Assembly: GCF_900182635.1 (NCBI RefSeq)
Contig: NZ_FXTD01000004.1
Span: 186,001 to 250,000, forward strand
Direction of reading: 5' to 3'
DNA: 64,000 nucleotides
From: Halorubrum cibi
Lineage (GTDB): Archaea; Halobacteriota; Halobacteria; Halobacteriales; Haloferacaceae
Part shown: positions 27,561-34,567 of the stretch, one piece after another
Position numbering within the stretch: the stretch's first letter is position 1
Layout: each line of letters starts with the position of its first letter
Notes under the pieces: model-generated
The model's database searches: none
Seen by the model: the letters and a program-made list of their open reading frames with translations, nothing else
What the model was told of the DNA's origin: nothing
Translations under genes and position numbers: made by a program

Positions 27561-28340
27561 TCACTGGTTCGGCATGAACCGGTGGTCGACGTCGCCGGAG
27601 AACTCCCCGGCACCCACGATGTCGTGTTCGAGCGTTCCGACGCCCTCGACGGTGACCGCGACCGTGTCGCCGTCGCTGAGCGGACTGATGCCCGAGGGCG
27701 TCCCCGTCGCGATGACGTCGCCGCGCTCGAGGGTGACCAGTTTCGTGATCTCGCTTATGAGTTCCGGGACGGAGAAGATCAGGTCGTCGATCGAGGAGTG
27801 CTGTTTCACCTCGCCGTTGACCGTCAGTTTGATCTCCGCGTCGTCGGGGACGTGTTTCGGGTCGGCGACGACCGGCCCGATCGGCGCGGCGTTGTCGAAC
27901 GCCTTCCCGCGGATCCAGTTCTGTTCTTTCTCCTGGTCGTCGCGGTTCGAGAGGTCGTTCACGCAGGTGTAGCCGGCGATGACCTCCTCGGCTCTGTCCT
28001 CGGGAACGTTTCGACACTGCTCGCCGATGACGACGCCGAACTCGGCCTCGTGGTCGACCCGCTCTTTCCCTTCGGGCAGCGAGATCGTGTCCCCGTGAGC
28101 GGCCAGCGTGTTCGGCCCCTTCAGGAACAACAGCGGGCGCTCGGGGATCTCCGAGTCGGTCTCCTCGGCGTGCGCCGAGTAGTTGAGACCGACGCAGACG
28201 ATCTTGCTCGGTTCGGTCGGCGGGAGTACGTCGACCTCGTCCGGATCGAACTTCTCCTCGCCGAAGCGAAGCTCGTCGTCGTCGGTCCACTCGCCGGTAC
28301 GGACGGATCCAGCCGGATCTCGAAATCTAACCTTTCGCAT
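27561..28340 (-). CDS. Fumarylacetoacetate hydrolase (FAH) family protein
   Basis: A 259-residue FAH-superfamily enzyme. Hallmarks are VCVGLNYSAHAEE, RPLLFLKGPNTL, the metal-binding DHEAEFGVVIGEQ with conserved acidic residues, GYTCVNDLSNRDDQ, NWIRGKAFDNAAPIGPV and the closing LERGDVIATGTPSGISPL. Members cleave or hydrate acylpyruvates and 2-oxo-diacids using Mg or Mn. It is the last gene of the minus-strand ABC importer block, 134 bases beyond the substrate-binding protein. Two T-tracts lie in that gap, so it may have its own promoter. Its substrate likely relates to what the importer brings in (inference). Confidence 0.88.
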   Translation of the reverse strand: MRKVRFRDPAGSVRTGEWTDDDELRFGEEKFDPDEVDVLPPTEPSKIVCVGLNYSAHAEETDSEIPERPLLFLKGPNTLAAHGDTISLPEGKERVDHEAEFGVVIGEQCRNVPEDRAEEVIAGYTCVNDLSNRDDQEKEQNWIRGKAFDNAAPIGPVVADPKHVPDDAEIKLTVNGEVKQHSSIDDLIFSVPELISEITKLVTLERGDVIATGTPSGISPLSDGDTVAVTVEGVGTLEHDIVGAGEFSGDVDHRFMPNQ

Positions 28341-28474: not shown

Positions 28475-30307
28475 TCAGAAGTTATCCGGGTTCGGCGTCT
28501 CGCCCTCGGGCCACGCCTCGAGGTCCGCGTCCTCGGGGTAGTAGAGGTTGCCGTCGTCGTCCCAGCCCCAGCCGGCGTCCTCGAGGACCTGCCGGGCGGT
28601 CTCGACGTCGCGGGTCTCCGGACCGGCCTCGCTGAGGTACTCCTCGTCGTACCACGGGTGCTGTTGGGAGTTGAACGTACAGTACGTCACCTCCTCGGAC
28701 TCGCCGAAGGCGTACGTCTCGTTCAGGCCCTGCCGGTCGACCATGTGAGAGAGCGCCTGGCGGAACTCGTGGTGCATGCCGGGCGCGTACGACATCTGCG
28801 GCATCATGCCGAACGGCAGGAACGCCGCCCCGTTGACGATCTGTGCGGTGTCGCCCATCGTCTCGTTGATCTGCCGGCCGGCGTCGGGCGTCAGCGTCAC
28901 CGCGATGGCGAGCTCCTCGTTCTCGAAGGCCCGGCGGACCGCGGAGACGCTGTCGTAGATCGACATGATGATCGACGACTCGACGTCGAACGCCGGGTTC
29001 CCGTCGTGGGGCACGAGTTCGATGTTCTCCTGGTTGTTGTACGTCGCGATCTCGTAGGGCCCCGCGCCGATCATGGGGTCCTCGAAGTCCGTCGGGTTCT
29101 CCTCGATCCCGGCGTCGACGTACGCGTCACGCGGAAGCACGCCGAACGTCGGCAGCTGTGCGGTCACCAGCGTCGGCGCCGGCTCCGGCGTCTCGAACCG
29201 GGCGGTGGTCTCGTCGACGGCCACGACGGTCAGCTCCTCCGGGAGGTCGGTCCACTGGTAGGGACCGTTGTGGTACTGCTCGCTCAGGAACTCGTAGGTC
29301 CACTTGACGTCGCTCGCGGTCACCGGCTCCCCGTTGTGGAAGGTGGCGTCGCGGAGGTTGAACGTCACCGCCGTCCCGTCGTCCGAGACCTCCCAGTCCT
29401 CCGCGAGGACGGGGACCCGCTCGTAGTTGGAGTCGTACAGCATCAGCGGCGAGTGCGTCAGCTGCGTGTACAGCCCCAGCGAGTCGGTGTCCCCGACGGT
29501 CGGGTAGAAGCTGCTCGTGAGGAACTCGCCCGGCAGGTTCGCCAGGATCGTGTCGGTCCCGCTCGTCGTCTGCGCGCCCGACTCGACCAGCGCGGCCCAG
29601 TTGACCGCGGAGAGACCCGCGCCGCCCGCCTCGACCGGTTCGACCATGTCCGTGTTGATCGCCGCCGTCGTCGGCCGCTCGATCGTCGGGATGAACGGCA
29701 GGTCCTCCGAGTAGAGGCTCATCGCCTCCCCGACGACCTCCCGCCGGTCGGAGGGAACCCCGATCGACGCCTGCTCGTCGGCGAGGTTCGAGAACTCCGT
29801 GTTCGCGTAGTTCGACGGGTTGTACTGTCCGTTCGAGCCGGCGTTGTCGATGCTGTAGGACTGTAACAGCCCGTTGGGATCGAGTCGACCCGGGTCCGGT
29901 CCGTGACTGTTCACGGCTAGGTGGAAGTCGCGCACGTCGTCGCTGACCGCCGTGATCCCCTCCGCGGTCGTCATTGGCTGCGTCTCGACTTGGATGCCGA
30001 TGTCGGATGCGACCGACTGAATGCTCGAGATGGTCTCCTCGAACAGGATCGTCGGCGGTCCCTGGTCAGACCAGTACTGGAAGGTCAGCGTGGGAACGCG
30101 CTCCCCGAGCCCTTCCGGACTGCTGCCGCCGCCGCCTCCGTCGCCGCCGCTTCCGTCGCCGCCGCCTCCGTCACCGCCACTTCCGTCGCCGCCCGACCCG
30201 TTCCCGCCACAGCCGGCGAGCGCCGCGGTTGACGCCACGGAGATGACTTTCAGTGCTTGTCGGCGATCGATACCCTCCCCTTCAACGCGGTTGCCACTTG
30301 GTGGCAT
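28475..30307 (-). CDS. ABC importer family-5 substrate-binding lipoprotein, apparently circularly permuted
   Basis: A 610-residue exported lipoprotein. It has a Tat signal (DRRQALKVISVASTAALAGC, Cys33) and a Gly/Ser/Asp repeat linker (34-63). Residues 72-243 read like the usual C-terminal part of OppA/DppA proteins: SVASDIGIQVETQP, SNYANTEFSNLADEQAS, RREVVGEAMSLYSEDLPFIP. Residues 251-610 then read like the usual N-terminal and middle part: SPLMLYDSNYERVPVLAEDW, TFNLRDATFHNGEPVTASDV, ending at DVETARQVLEDAGWGWDDDG, where normal members continue into the block found here at the front. The domain order is thus rotated. It has its own TATA box, separate from the permease/ATPase genes upstream. 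The ligand is unknown; the family binds peptides, nickel, sugars and other solutes. Confidence 0.88.
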   Translation of the reverse strand: MPPSGNRVEGEGIDRRQALKVISVASTAALAGCGGNGSGGDGSGGDGGGGDGSGGDGGGGGSSPEGLGERVPTLTFQYWSDQGPPTILFEETISSIQSVASDIGIQVETQPMTTAEGITAVSDDVRDFHLAVNSHGPDPGRLDPNGLLQSYSIDNAGSNGQYNPSNYANTEFSNLADEQASIGVPSDRREVVGEAMSLYSEDLPFIPTIERPTTAAINTDMVEPVEAGGAGLSAVNWAALVESGAQTTSGTDTILANLPGEFLTSSFYPTVGDTDSLGLYTQLTHSPLMLYDSNYERVPVLAEDWEVSDDGTAVTFNLRDATFHNGEPVTASDVKWTYEFLSEQYHNGPYQWTDLPEELTVVAVDETTARFETPEPAPTLVTAQLPTFGVLPRDAYVDAGIEENPTDFEDPMIGAGPYEIATYNNQENIELVPHDGNPAFDVESSIIMSIYDSVSAVRRAFENEELAIAVTLTPDAGRQINETMGDTAQIVNGAAFLPFGMMPQMSYAPGMHHEFRQALSHMVDRQGLNETYAFGESEEVTYCTFNSQQHPWYDEEYLSEAGPETRDVETARQVLEDAGWGWDDDGNLYYPEDADLEAWPEGETPNPDNF

Positions 30308-30448: not shown

Positions 30449-31447
30449 TCAGTCCTCGTCGCCGGCGACGGACACGCGCGGGTCGAGCACGCCGTACAGG
30501 AGATCGACGAAGAAGTTCCCGATGATGACCCAGGTGGCCGCGATGAGGAACACGAACTGGATCACGGGGAAGTCTCGGGCCAGGACCGACGAGACCAACA
30601 GCTGGCCGATCCCCGGCCAGTTGAAGACGACCTCGATGAGGACGAGGCCGCTGATCGACGCCGCGAGCGAGATCGGGTACAGCGTGATGACCGGCAGCGA
30701 GGCGTGACGGATGATCTTCCGGAGCAGCTTCGACTCGGGAAGCCCCTTCAGCCGGTGGTAGTGGAGGTACTCCTGGTCGCTCACCTCGACGACGCTGTTG
30801 CGCATGATGAGCGTCGGGTACTGCATGAAGTAGAGGAGCACCGTCATGAACGGCAGCGTGTAGTGTCTCCAGAACTCCGGGATCAGGAACCGCTGCCAGT
30901 ACGGCTGGTCTCCGAGTTGGATCATCTCCGCCGGCGGGAGCATCCCCGAGGTCGGGAAGATACCCAGCGTCGAGGAGAACAGCGCGATCAGCATGATACC
31001 GAGGAAGAAGTCCGGGATCGAGTGGAAGATCGAGACCGAGATGATCCCCGACTTCTCGAGGGGACTCCCGCGGCGACGACCGATGTACGCGCCGAAGAGT
31101 CCGCCGACGATGTACGTCGCGGTGATCGCCGGCGCGACGAGCACGAACGAGTTCAGGATGCGCGGGGCCACGAGCTCCCAGACCGGCTGGCTGAAGCGGA
31201 AGGACTGCCCCGCGTTCCCGGTGAAGAGGTTGGTGATGTACTCGTAGTACTGGACGTATATCGGCTCGTCGAGCCCCCAATCCGCCCGCAGCTGTGCGAT
31301 CTGTTCGGGGTTCATCCCCTGTTGGACCAGAAGCGACGAGTAGTCTCCCGGCATCGCCCGGAAGAAGAAGAACAGCGCCGAGGCCACGAGGAAGATGAGC
31401 ACCGCCGTTATCGCCGTCCGGCGGACGAAGTAGCTCAGGCGGCTCAC
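30449..31447 (-). CDS. ABC transporter permease, DppB type
   Basis: A 332-residue inner permease with six predicted helices, the first being TAITAVLIFLVASALFFFF. The N-terminal MSRLSYFVRRT plus the ALFFFFRAMPGD segment is typical of the DppB subunit, as is the EAA loop YLHYHRLKGLPESKLLRKII that contacts the ATPases. It starts with GTG at 31447, overlapping the stop of a 39-codon ORF (31444-31563) by four bases. With the partner permease at 33665 and two ATPases it forms the importer's membrane complex. Confidence 0.9.
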   Translation of the reverse strand: MSRLSYFVRRTAITAVLIFLVASALFFFFRAMPGDYSSLLVQQGMNPEQIAQLRADWGLDEPIYVQYYEYITNLFTGNAGQSFRFSQPVWELVAPRILNSFVLVAPAITATYIVGGLFGAYIGRRRGSPLEKSGIISVSIFHSIPDFFLGIMLIALFSSTLGIFPTSGMLPPAEMIQLGDQPYWQRFLIPEFWRHYTLPFMTVLLYFMQYPTLIMRNSVVEVSDQEYLHYHRLKGLPESKLLRKIIRHASLPVITLYPISLAASISGLVLIEVVFNWPGIGQLLVSSVLARDFPVIQFVFLIAATWVIIGNFFVDLLYGVLDPRVSVAGDED

Positions 31448-31563
31448 GGACGCTCACCTCCGGCTCGGAGCCACGCTCTGTCGTCGCCGTCTCCGTCCGC
31501 GACGGTGTTCGTCGGTCGCTGCACGTCGGCTCGCGTGTTCGTGCTCGGGTCGTATCGAGTCAT
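31444..31563 (-). CDS. Possible 39-residue small protein in the ABC operon
   Basis: An ORF starting MTRYDPSTNTRADVQRPTNT and ending LRAGGERP. Its ATG overlaps the stop of the upstream ATPase gene (ATGA) and its stop overlaps the GTG start of the permease (GTGA). These exact 4-base overlaps on both sides are what translationally coupled genes in this genome show. It is hydrophilic, with no recognised domain. It could be a real small subunit or only a coupling ORF that carries ribosomes to the permease start; conservation would decide. Confidence 0.4.
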   Translation of the reverse strand: MTRYDPSTNTRADVQRPTNTVADGDGDDRAWLRAGGERP

Positions 31564-32624
31564 GTCGGTGTCTCCGGAGTGTGTTCCCCGGCCGGCTCGT
31601 CCGCCTGACCGGCCGTCGCTTCGTGATCGTAGTAGAGGTGGCAGGCGACCGTACGCTCCCCGTCACCGTCCGGATCGACGTCTCGCGGTTTCCGGTCACA
31701 GACGTCCATCCGCTCCGGACAGCGCGTCTTGAACCGACACCCCTCCGGCATGTCGATCGGGTCGCCCGGCTCCCCACCGATCGTCGCCCGCTCGCGCTTG
31801 TGGTGCGGGTCGGGGATCGGGATCGACTGGATCAACGCCTTCGTGTACGGGTGTTTCGGGTCCGAGAGCAGCTCTCGCGTCTCGGCCTTTTCGACGATCC
31901 GACCCAGGTACATCACGTTGATCTCGTCACAGACGTACGAGACCGTCGAGAGGTCGTGGGAGATGTAGATCATCGAGACGCCGAACTCGCTGGTCAGATC
32001 GTTCAGCAGGTTGAGGATCGACGCCTGCGTCGAGACGTCGAGCATCGACGACGGCTCGTCGGCCAGGATCACCTCGGGATCGGTGATGAGCGCCCGGGCG
32101 ATGGCGACCCGCTGTTTCTCCCCGCCCGAGAGCTGGTTCGGGAACTGCTGGATGTACTGGCTCGCGGGCGTCAGTCCGACCTTCTCGAGCATCTCCTCGA
32201 TGTCGGACCGCTCGTAGTCGATGTCGTGTATCTCCAGCGGCTCGGCGATCGTCCGCCGAACGCTGAACTTCGGGTCCAGGGAGTTGAACGGGTCCTGGAA
32301 CACGATCTGGACCTTCCGACGGAACTCCTTCCAGTCGGCCTTGCCGAACTCGCTCGTCGACTTCCCCTGGAACCGGATGTCGCCGTCCGTTGGGTCGTAC
32401 AGACCCATCACGGTCCGAAGGAGCGTCGTCTTTCCACAACCGCTCTCGCCGATGACGCCCTGGACCTGGTTCTGCTCGAGCGTCATGTCCAGGTCGTCGA
32501 CGGCGCGAACCAGCTTCGGCCCCTCCCCGAAGATGCGTTCCTTGACCGACTCGACGAAACTCGACGTCGTCTGGAAGTGTTTATCCACCGACTCGAGTTC
32601 GAGAACGGGGTCGGTCGCGCTCAT
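31560..32624 (-). CDS. ABC importer ATP-binding protein, OppF/DppF type
   Basis: A 354-residue ATPase with Walker A GESGCGKTT, signature LSGGEKQRVAIARAL, Walker B ILADEPSSMLD and switch His in ISHDLSTVSYVCDE. The C-terminal oligopeptide-transporter extension has CRFKTRCPERMDVCDRKP, a Cys cluster that in some family members binds an iron-sulfur or metal site. The ATG at 32624 (MSATDPVLELES) overlaps the stop of the upstream ATPase by 4 bases. It energises import together with the DppD-type partner. Confidence 0.92.
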   Translation of the reverse strand: MSATDPVLELESVDKHFQTTSSFVESVKERIFGEGPKLVRAVDDLDMTLEQNQVQGVIGESGCGKTTLLRTVMGLYDPTDGDIRFQGKSTSEFGKADWKEFRRKVQIVFQDPFNSLDPKFSVRRTIAEPLEIHDIDYERSDIEEMLEKVGLTPASQYIQQFPNQLSGGEKQRVAIARALITDPEVILADEPSSMLDVSTQASILNLLNDLTSEFGVSMIYISHDLSTVSYVCDEINVMYLGRIVEKAETRELLSDPKHPYTKALIQSIPIPDPHHKRERATIGGEPGDPIDMPEGCRFKTRCPERMDVCDRKPRDVDPDGDGERTVACHLYYDHEATAGQADEPAGEHTPETPT

Positions 32625-33664
32625 TCTCCTCCCCCCAGGATGCTCTCCTCCTCGGCCTTCGGCTCGAGGTGTTCGGCCGCCAGTTCCTCCATCTCGTCGG
32701 CCCGGACGCACCAGGCCTGATGGTCGTCGTCGCCGGCGACGGCCTGGGCGTCGGGAGCACCCTCGCGGCACTCGGGTTGGGCCCACGGGCACCGGTCGGC
32801 GAACGTACAGAAGTCGACCTCGCCGCGCAGCTGCGGCGGGTGGCCGTCGATGACCGCCAGCTCGCGGTCCGGGAACCGGACGTCCGGGAACGCGTTCTGT
32901 AACAGGATCGCGTACGGGTGACGCGGCCTGTCGTACACGTCGACGACGCTTCCGGTCTCGGCGACCTGCCCGCCGTGCATCACGGCCATCGAGTCGCAGT
33001 TCTCGAAGACGACCGAGATGTCGTGGGTGATCATCAGCATGCTGATGTCCCAGTCGTCTTTGAGGCCGTTGATGTAGTCGATTATCTGGTCCTGCATGAT
33101 CACGTCCAGCGCCGTCGTCGGCTCGTCGGCGATGATGAGGCTGGGCCGGAGGTACAGCGCGAACGCGATGATCGCCCGCTGTTGCATCCCGCCGGAGAAC
33201 TGATGCGGGTAGTCGTGGATCCGCGACTCGGAGAGTCCGACGACCTCGAACAGCTCGCGAAGCCGGTCGATCGCCTCCGTTTTCGTGAGATCGGTGTGGT
33301 ATTTGGCCATCTCAACCGCCTGGTTGCTCAGCTTCATCACCGGGTCCAGGCTGTTCATCGACGATTGGGGAATGACCGAGATCTCCTTCCAGCGGACGTT
33401 CTGGTTGAACTCCTTTTCGGAGTAGTCCTGGATCTCCTCGCCCTTGTACCGGATCGTCCCGGAGGTGACTTCGCCGTTGGCGTCGAGACCGCCCACGATG
33501 GCGTCCGCGATCGTGCTCTTGCCGCAACCGCTCTCGCCGACCAGCCCGAAGTAGTCGTGCCGGTTTATCGAGAACGACGCGTCGTTGACCGCGTGTACGT
33601 CGTTTCCTTTCTCCGTCCGGTAGCGAATGTCGACGTCTTCGAACTCGAGTATTGGGTCCGTCAT
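32621..33664 (-). CDS. ABC importer ATP-binding protein, OppD/DppD type
   Basis: A 347-residue ATPase. Visible are Walker A GESGCGKSTIADAI, signature FSGGMQQRAIIAFAL, Walker B LIIADEPTTALDV and switch His in MITHDISVVFENCD. The C-terminal Cys-containing motif VDFCTFADRCPWAQPECRE is typical of oligopeptide-type ATPases. Its ATG at 33664 directly abuts the stop of the permease gene (33665), and its stop overlaps the next ATPase start. This is the first ATPase of the operon. Confidence 0.92.
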   Translation of the reverse strand: MTDPILEFEDVDIRYRTEKGNDVHAVNDASFSINRHDYFGLVGESGCGKSTIADAIVGGLDANGEVTSGTIRYKGEEIQDYSEKEFNQNVRWKEISVIPQSSMNSLDPVMKLSNQAVEMAKYHTDLTKTEAIDRLRELFEVVGLSESRIHDYPHQFSGGMQQRAIIAFALYLRPSLIIADEPTTALDVIMQDQIIDYINGLKDDWDISMLMITHDISVVFENCDSMAVMHGGQVAETGSVVDVYDRPRHPYAILLQNAFPDVRFPDRELAVIDGHPPQLRGEVDFCTFADRCPWAQPECREGAPDAQAVAGDDDHQAWCVRADEMEELAAEHLEPKAEEESILGGGE

Positions 33665-34567
33665 TTACACAACCACCTCGTCGTCTCCGCTCCCCTCGTA
33701 TCCGCGACCGAGGAGGTACAGCGACAGCACGGTCAACGCGATCATGATGCCCGGCGGGAACGTCCACCACCAGGCTTCAGCGATACGACCCGCTTGGTTG
33801 GCGTTCCGGATCATGATCCCCCACGTCGGCGTGAACGGGTCGGTGACGCCGATGAACGAGAGACCGGCCTGCTCGAGGATCGCCAGGCCGACCCCCATCG
33901 CGAAGAACAGCGCGGCCATGTTCGCGATGTTCGGGAGGATGTGTTTCCGCATGATCCACGGGGTGCTCGCCCCGGTCGCCCGCGCGGCCATGATGTACGG
34001 CCGTTGGTTTATCTGAAGCACCTGGGATCGTATCACCCTGGCTATGAACCGCCAGAGCACGAGTCCCAGGATGGCAACCGTGGTGTAGAATCCCGCCCCG
34101 AAGAACGTGATGAGAACGATCGCGAACGGGATGAAGGGGATCCCGTACATGAAGTCGACGAATCGCATGAGGAAACTCTCCGTCCGTCCGCCGACATATC
34201 CGGCCGTCATCCCGACCGTCAACCCGATCGTCATCATCAGGCCGCCGGCGAGCAGTCCGGTGATCAGCGTCGCGCGCGCCCCGTACAGCAGTCGCGAGAG
34301 GACGTCCTCGCCGCGGTCGTTCGTGCCGAGGGGATGCTCGAGCGACGGCTCGGCGTAGCGCATCAAGTCCCCGTCGTCGGTCGTCTGCTGGGTGTTGTAC
34401 GAGTACGGTGCGATCGCCGGGCCGATCAGACCCATGACGAGGATGATCGCCAGGATCACGAAGGCGGCCCTCGTGATTCGCTCCTCCAGGAGGTTCCCTA
34501 GCGCCCGTCTCGCGATGATCGCGAGATCGCTATTGCGGTACGCGTGAACCTTGTCAGCGATGCTCAT
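33665..34567 (-). CDS. ABC transporter permease, DppC type
   Basis: A 300-residue permease with six helices and the DppC-specific N-terminal region (AAFVILAIILVMGLIGPAIA; HPLGTNDRGEDVLSRLLYGA). The EAA loop is YIMAARATGASTPWIMRKHI. It is the first gene of the importer operon. Upstream on the minus strand, an AGTATACACA string about 30 bases before the ATG and a TTTTATTAAG string about 80 bases before it are both promoter candidates. Confidence 0.9.
   Translation of the reverse strand: MSIADKVHAYRNSDLAIIARRALGNLLEERITRAAFVILAIILVMGLIGPAIAPYSYNTQQTTDDGDLMRYAEPSLEHPLGTNDRGEDVLSRLLYGARATLITGLLAGGLMMTIGLTVGMTAGYVGGRTESFLMRFVDFMYGIPFIPFAIVLITFFGAGFYTTVAILGLVLWRFIARVIRSQVLQINQRPYIMAARATGASTPWIMRKHILPNIANMAALFFAMGVGLAILEQAGLSFIGVTDPFTPTWGIMIRNANQAGRIAEAWWWTFPPGIMIALTVLSLYLLGRGYEGSGDDEVVV

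Follow-up and report, generated by a model that had tools for sequence, protein, structure and literature searches.

A gene on the minus strand of a 64,000-nucleotide stretch of the Halorubrum cibi genome (hereafter the window) very probably encodes the lipid-anchored binding protein of a Dpp/Opp-type ABC importer, with a cluster C fold that has been circularly permuted in nature. In its single unbroken frame of 610 aa, a secretion signal and a linker are followed by the part with which canonical family-5 proteins end (block B) and, after a short junction, by the part with which they begin (block A; Table 1). The two arginines of the signal, R15 and R16, are invariant in the ortholog alignment and C33 is nearly so, while at the other end of the protein the new C-terminus lies shortly past DAGWGWDDDGNLYYPE.

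Table 1. Parts of the permuted binding protein, neighboring genes in the window and spirochaete-type proteins (positions of the last row are those of the respective loci)
Feature	Position	Strand	Basis or remark
Permuted family-5 substrate-binding protein, whole ORF	28475..30307	-	610 aa, stop included; conserved in L001-L008
Residues 1-33: twin-arginine (R15 R16) signal and lipobox LAGC ending at Cys33	30209..30307	-	sequence
Residues 34-71: Gly/Asp/Ser-rich linker	30095..30208	-	alignment; length varies among orthologues
Residues 72-243: block B, C-terminal part of canonical family-5 protein, now in front	29579..30094	-	canonical-only profile; 7ofw
Residues 244-250: junction, old C-terminus to old N-terminus	29558..29578	-	gap between B end and A start across permuted proteins
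Residues 251-610: block A, N-terminal and middle part	28478..29557	-	PF00496; canonical-only profile
DppC/OppC-type permease	33665..34567	-	PF00528, PF12911 OppC_N
DppD/OppD-type ATPase	32621..33664	-	PF00005, PF08352
DppF/OppF-type ATPase	31560..32792	-	PF00005, PF08352 oligo_HPY; ORF start uncertain
DppB/OppB-type permease	30449..31447	-	PF00528, PF19300
Fumarylacetoacetate hydrolase family protein, directly downstream of binding-protein gene	27561..28340	-	PF01557
Spirochaete-type permuted proteins	L009 1-1590; L010 4793-6418; L011 5134-6774; L108 1498-3204

Swapped order of the conserved blocks

The sole Pfam family detected in the window protein is SBP_bac_5 (PF00496), with a score of 171.1 bits against a gathering score of 32.4, and the 60 listed PDB matches bear family-5 type names. 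The Pfam match covers only residues 298-588, corresponding to profile positions 3-286 of 368, and the missing end of the profile is located in front of the matched part. Paralogues present the same picture clearly: within one frame, HMM positions 287-364 or 289-366 are matched ahead of 3-279 or 2-286. When compared with PDB sequences, residues 251-592 found their counterpart in the N-terminal to middle region of family-5 chains and residues 104-210 in the C-terminal region (7ofw 393-496, E 2.5e-7); among the best 60 PDB matches the best stretch of every chain falls in the head-and-middle block, and none crosses the junction.

To avoid circularity, the test profile was made from canonical-order proteins only (n=56), and a second version of it was rotated at the cut. 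The canonical-only profile matched the window protein with its positions 30-333 at 288-600 (E 2.7e-53; block A) and with its positions 338-464 at 97-232 (E 4.9e-17; block B, whereby the C-terminal part of the family is present), the match positions being numbered in the stop-to-stop frame, which equals ATG numbering plus 8. The canonical OppA/DppA order, in which the N-terminal and middle part is followed by the C-terminal part, is thereby reversed, as block B precedes block A. The rotated profile gave one match, at 98-588 (E 7.1e-72), and it scores better than the canonical version in 78 of 85 permuted proteins and in none of 61 canonical ones.

The original prediction had read this protein as circularly permuted, with segments at residues 72-243 and 251-610 whose two ends would fit together as one normal protein. 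The swapped profile matches, the single rotated match, the order kept across species and the close canonical/permuted pairs described below all bear out the permutation; the residue ranges are right to within a few residues, and the strand, which had not been given, is the minus strand. A duplicated C-terminal lobe had been named as the case that would overturn this reading, and it is excluded, for profile searches detected no second A or B block in the window or in the L001-L008 flanks. The survey of orthologues that had been called for recovered eight haloarchaeal species from the genera Halorubrum, Halorussus, Halegenticoccus and Halalkalicoccus, at 63-96% identity and mostly aligned over residues 1-610 in the same order; this shared order rules out an assembly artefact. 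In the Halorussus salinisoli orthologue (L007 5986-7812) the lipobox LAGC is replaced by GLAGY, and this protein may be without a lipid anchor, or the sequence may contain an error.

The strongest single indication of permutation is a pair of proteins that differ in order, the permuted L114 and the canonical L073, which share 62.6% identity over 417 aa of block A and 66.1% over 180 aa of block B, with the blocks swapped. Likewise, in the two blocks L073 is 61.6% and 64.6% identical to the permuted L034 and 58.0% and 55.9% identical to the permuted L020, L034 is 62.3% and 58.0% identical to the canonical WP_247995043.1 of Halocatena salina, and the permuted L146 is 47.2% and 35.2% identical to the canonical L162. 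Each block of L073 and of the Halocatena protein is about 50-66% identical to the permuted group comprising L020, L034, L046, L076 and L114, yet both proteins have the canonical order, and this provides a natural before-and-after pair.

Phyletic spread of the permuted order

A permutation of this kind had initially been taken to be unusual, a view that has to be abandoned: it is frequent in Halobacteria, has several origins, and extends to alphaproteobacteria and another archaeal family. In a sample of 59 Halobacteria genomes, at least 43 hold a permuted family-5 protein (G008 adds an identical copy, which was merged in this tally), and the Halorubrum cibi genome encodes at least five (the window protein, L013, L014, L015 and L020). 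The distinct SBP5 ORFs that we fetched (n=170), a non-random set gathered with permuted queries, comprise 101 permuted, 55 canonical and 14 undecided proteins. Permuted relatives lie within ordinary opp/dpp operons on alphaproteobacterial plasmids of Nitratireductor, Ketogulonicigenium, Maritalea and Roseomonas, with a complete DppBCDF operon at the loci L190-L192, and Neorhizobium has one too, at a locus without annotation. A phylum-wide search recovered the permuted order in one archaeal family outside Halobacteria (f12, L194-L197), the other loci examined being canonical. No relative was found on viral contigs.

Multiple origins and differing breakpoints

For the construction of trees all sequences were first rotated in silico to a common order. 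In the resulting 136-row tree the permuted order needs three changes, and the AU test rejects a single permuted clade (p 9e-33). The 150-row tree, to which the phylum sequences were added, has four permuted origins, all forced by well-supported branches, and four are likewise obtained from a 58-row mixture-model tree, with a bootstrap range of 4-5 and no bootstrap tree with one; such counts of changes cannot alone separate gain of the permuted order from its loss. The permuted order thus appears to have arisen at least four separate times in family 5, in addition to the spirochaete type described below. The four permuted groups are a large clade that unites the window protein with the alphaproteobacterial sequences (group A), L146, L149 and L151 beside the canonical L162 (group B), L020, L034, L037, L046, L076 and L114 beside the canonical L073 (group C), and L194-L197 (group D). 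Chains of group A end past DAGWGWDDDGNLYYPE and those of group C past AEELLEEMAAEYGESS. In group B the pre-cut helix is N-terminal (AEELIQQGF...), which places the cut of this group upstream of that in groups A and C.

A further type of permutation occurs in spirochaetes (L009, L010, L011 and L108), in which the leading part of the chain matches the canonical profile from 243-254 to about 464 and the trailing part matches it from 32-34 to 240-248. Its cut is situated about 70 DppA residues further upstream, in the loop ...NVQKKP/LDDVKVRQAL (DppA ~273-276). With a cutoff of E 1e-40, this type was recovered in 2 of the 149 genomes of the phylum, one of them being that of the query, and it possibly keeps just one covalent link between the lobes. 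The loop that is cut precedes DVRVRQA and lies beside the first hinge strand.

Fold, cut site and membrane tether

The cut of the window protein lies between residues 339 and 348 of mature DppA (DppA 340-347). In EppA, a member of cluster C, domain III is one continuous stretch, and the chain begins in domain I and finishes in domain IIb (PMC7312458). When combined with this domain scheme, the position of the cut places the new chain ends inside domain III, and the positions of the EppA ends, together with the gap between the end of block B and the start of block A (median 10 residues, n=101 permuted proteins), suggest that the old termini would be joinable by a short linker. AlphaFold2 reached a pLDDT of 32.5 with the window protein and its eight orthologues and of 37.5 with three spirochaete relatives added, both on shallow alignments and both too low for a usable model.

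For the fold, ligand binding, tether position and evolutionary route we infer that the old N- and C-termini, which are expected on the same side of the molecule, would have been linked by the short junction, and that the chain would have been opened anew in the loop that leads from the helix with EAG at its end to the following strand of domain III. On folding, the two chain ends would together make up domain III and the middle of the chain would supply domains I and II, with a two-strand hinge and a cleft expected as in DppA/OppA. Ligand would be bound and then handed to DppBC in the ordinary way, and the membrane attachment would be via domain III and not domain I, such that the product would be a normal two-lobed protein with its tether moved to the other lobe. 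The likely route would be a tandem gene duplication, followed by fusion of the tail of the upstream copy to the head of the downstream copy and loss of the outer pieces.

Relocation of the tether was considered as a general driver of permutation and rejected, because the permuted alphaproteobacterial members have no lipobox; the tether is therefore not the whole reason for the permutation. A tentative and, on the whole, doubtful extension is that selection has repeatedly favored cuts within or beside domain III of cluster C binding proteins (the four origins of this order and the spirochaete type), where a tether or free end on the other lobe would alter docking or opening on the DppBC permease. 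In the permuted archaeal protein L197 (1133-2896; family f12) block A is followed by a hydrophobic, membrane-anchor-like C-terminus with a basic tail, which would again put an anchor on the domain III side.

Alternative explanations

Tandem genes that could serve as precursors in the above route are known from Phyllobacterium, in which four canonical family-5 binding-protein genes lie in a row upstream of oppB (L214 101-6798). They could also be invoked for a fusion, with block B and block A contributed by separate binding-protein genes that had diverged beforehand; a permuted query does match across two adjacent genes of this array in tblastn. The Phyllobacterium genes indicate only that possible raw material for fusion-type permutation exists, and among the ORFs examined there was no B-A-B or A-B-A-B intermediate. 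A fusion of diverged genes is nevertheless unlikely, since wherever close canonical relatives exist the two blocks resemble one and the same canonical protein to about equal degree (62.6% and 66.1%), as would be expected of a single lineage source. We consider it quite improbable that a single ancient permutation was followed by a return of some lineages to the canonical order: the inability of change counts to distinguish gain from loss leaves room for it, but it requires more steps, the outer groups are canonical, and the breakpoints differ, with L146, L149 and L151 starting with the AEELIQQGF helix and P0001 and L020 ending with it.

The order of segments by itself does not demonstrate that they pack within one molecule, and it is conceivable that the chain does not refold into one bilobed unit, with block B either pairing with block A of a second chain in a domain-swapped dimer or forming a separate module. 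The shortness of the junction, the retention of both blocks over long divergence and the monomeric, bilobed state of the permuted TpMglB-2 (PMC4990184) make this very improbable. The chance of an assembly artefact, frameshift or pseudogene is practically negligible, given an open frame of this length and an order that recurs in many genomes besides those of the eight species.

Relationship to known binding proteins

To our knowledge, TpMglB-2 is the one natural permuted binding protein for which a structure has been solved. This protein (Tp0684) of Treponema pallidum and its relatives have been proposed to constitute a 'Cluster Bc' (PMC4990184). Like the window protein, TpMglB-2 is a lipid-anchored ABC binding protein whose segment order has been circularly permuted in nature; it retains the bilobed fold and ligand-induced closing (PMC4990184). 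TpMglB-2 has a cluster B sugar-binding fold of unrelated sequence, and its moved block comprises about 70-100 residues, with a fourth crossing between the lobes. The window protein belongs to cluster C and is cut within one domain, for which reason the number of its lobe crossings should be unchanged; it shares with Cluster Bc a permuted order, at the level of sequence, and neither Pfam nor the 60 listed PDB matches connect it with cluster B (MglB). Its affinities are with the SBP_bac_5 proteins of cluster C (DppA, OppA, AppA, NikA and EppA), which are homologous to both blocks over nearly their full length and have the same type of permease/ATPase operon, and whose canonical haloarchaeal members carry the same secretion and anchoring signals. 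It differs from them in that canonical chains have their termini on the domain I/II side, while its own chain has both ends within domain III. The open-access papers that were searched yielded no precedent other than the one from cluster B, and their silence is weak evidence; permutation of family-5 binding proteins seems to have gone unreported.

Permutation is now seen to be widespread within one of the very large families of transporters, and related organisms have canonical and permuted versions that are more than 60% identical. This constitutes a rare natural experiment on how permutation arises, on its effect on folding and on the anchor-bearing lobe, and on whether it is selected. Pfam annotation hides the permutation, annotated members being plain 'ABC transporter substrate-binding protein', and sequence alignments of the family will go wrong at both ends. 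The positions of permutation also represent naturally tolerated cut sites for engineered biosensors.

Operon context and possible substrates

The permuted gene is encoded together with OppB/OppC permeases and two oligo_HPY ATPases, in the same-strand order DppC, DppD, DppF, DppB, permuted binding protein and fumarylacetoacetate hydrolase. As it thus sits in an ordinary Dpp/Opp operon, its product most likely works as a normal binding protein. The neighboring fumarylacetoacetate hydrolase gene may be a sign that an organic acid is imported. In DppA the ligand is held by the pair R383/D436 (PMC12136057); the window protein has no obvious equivalent of this pair at the aligned positions, and its ligand, therefore, may not be a dipeptide. 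Two of the permuted alphaproteobacterial binding proteins (L190 5824-7500 and L192 4824-6509) adjoin M28/M20 peptidase genes, and L190 also has hydantoinase/oxoprolinase genes nearby, hinting at peptide-like or cyclic amide substrates.
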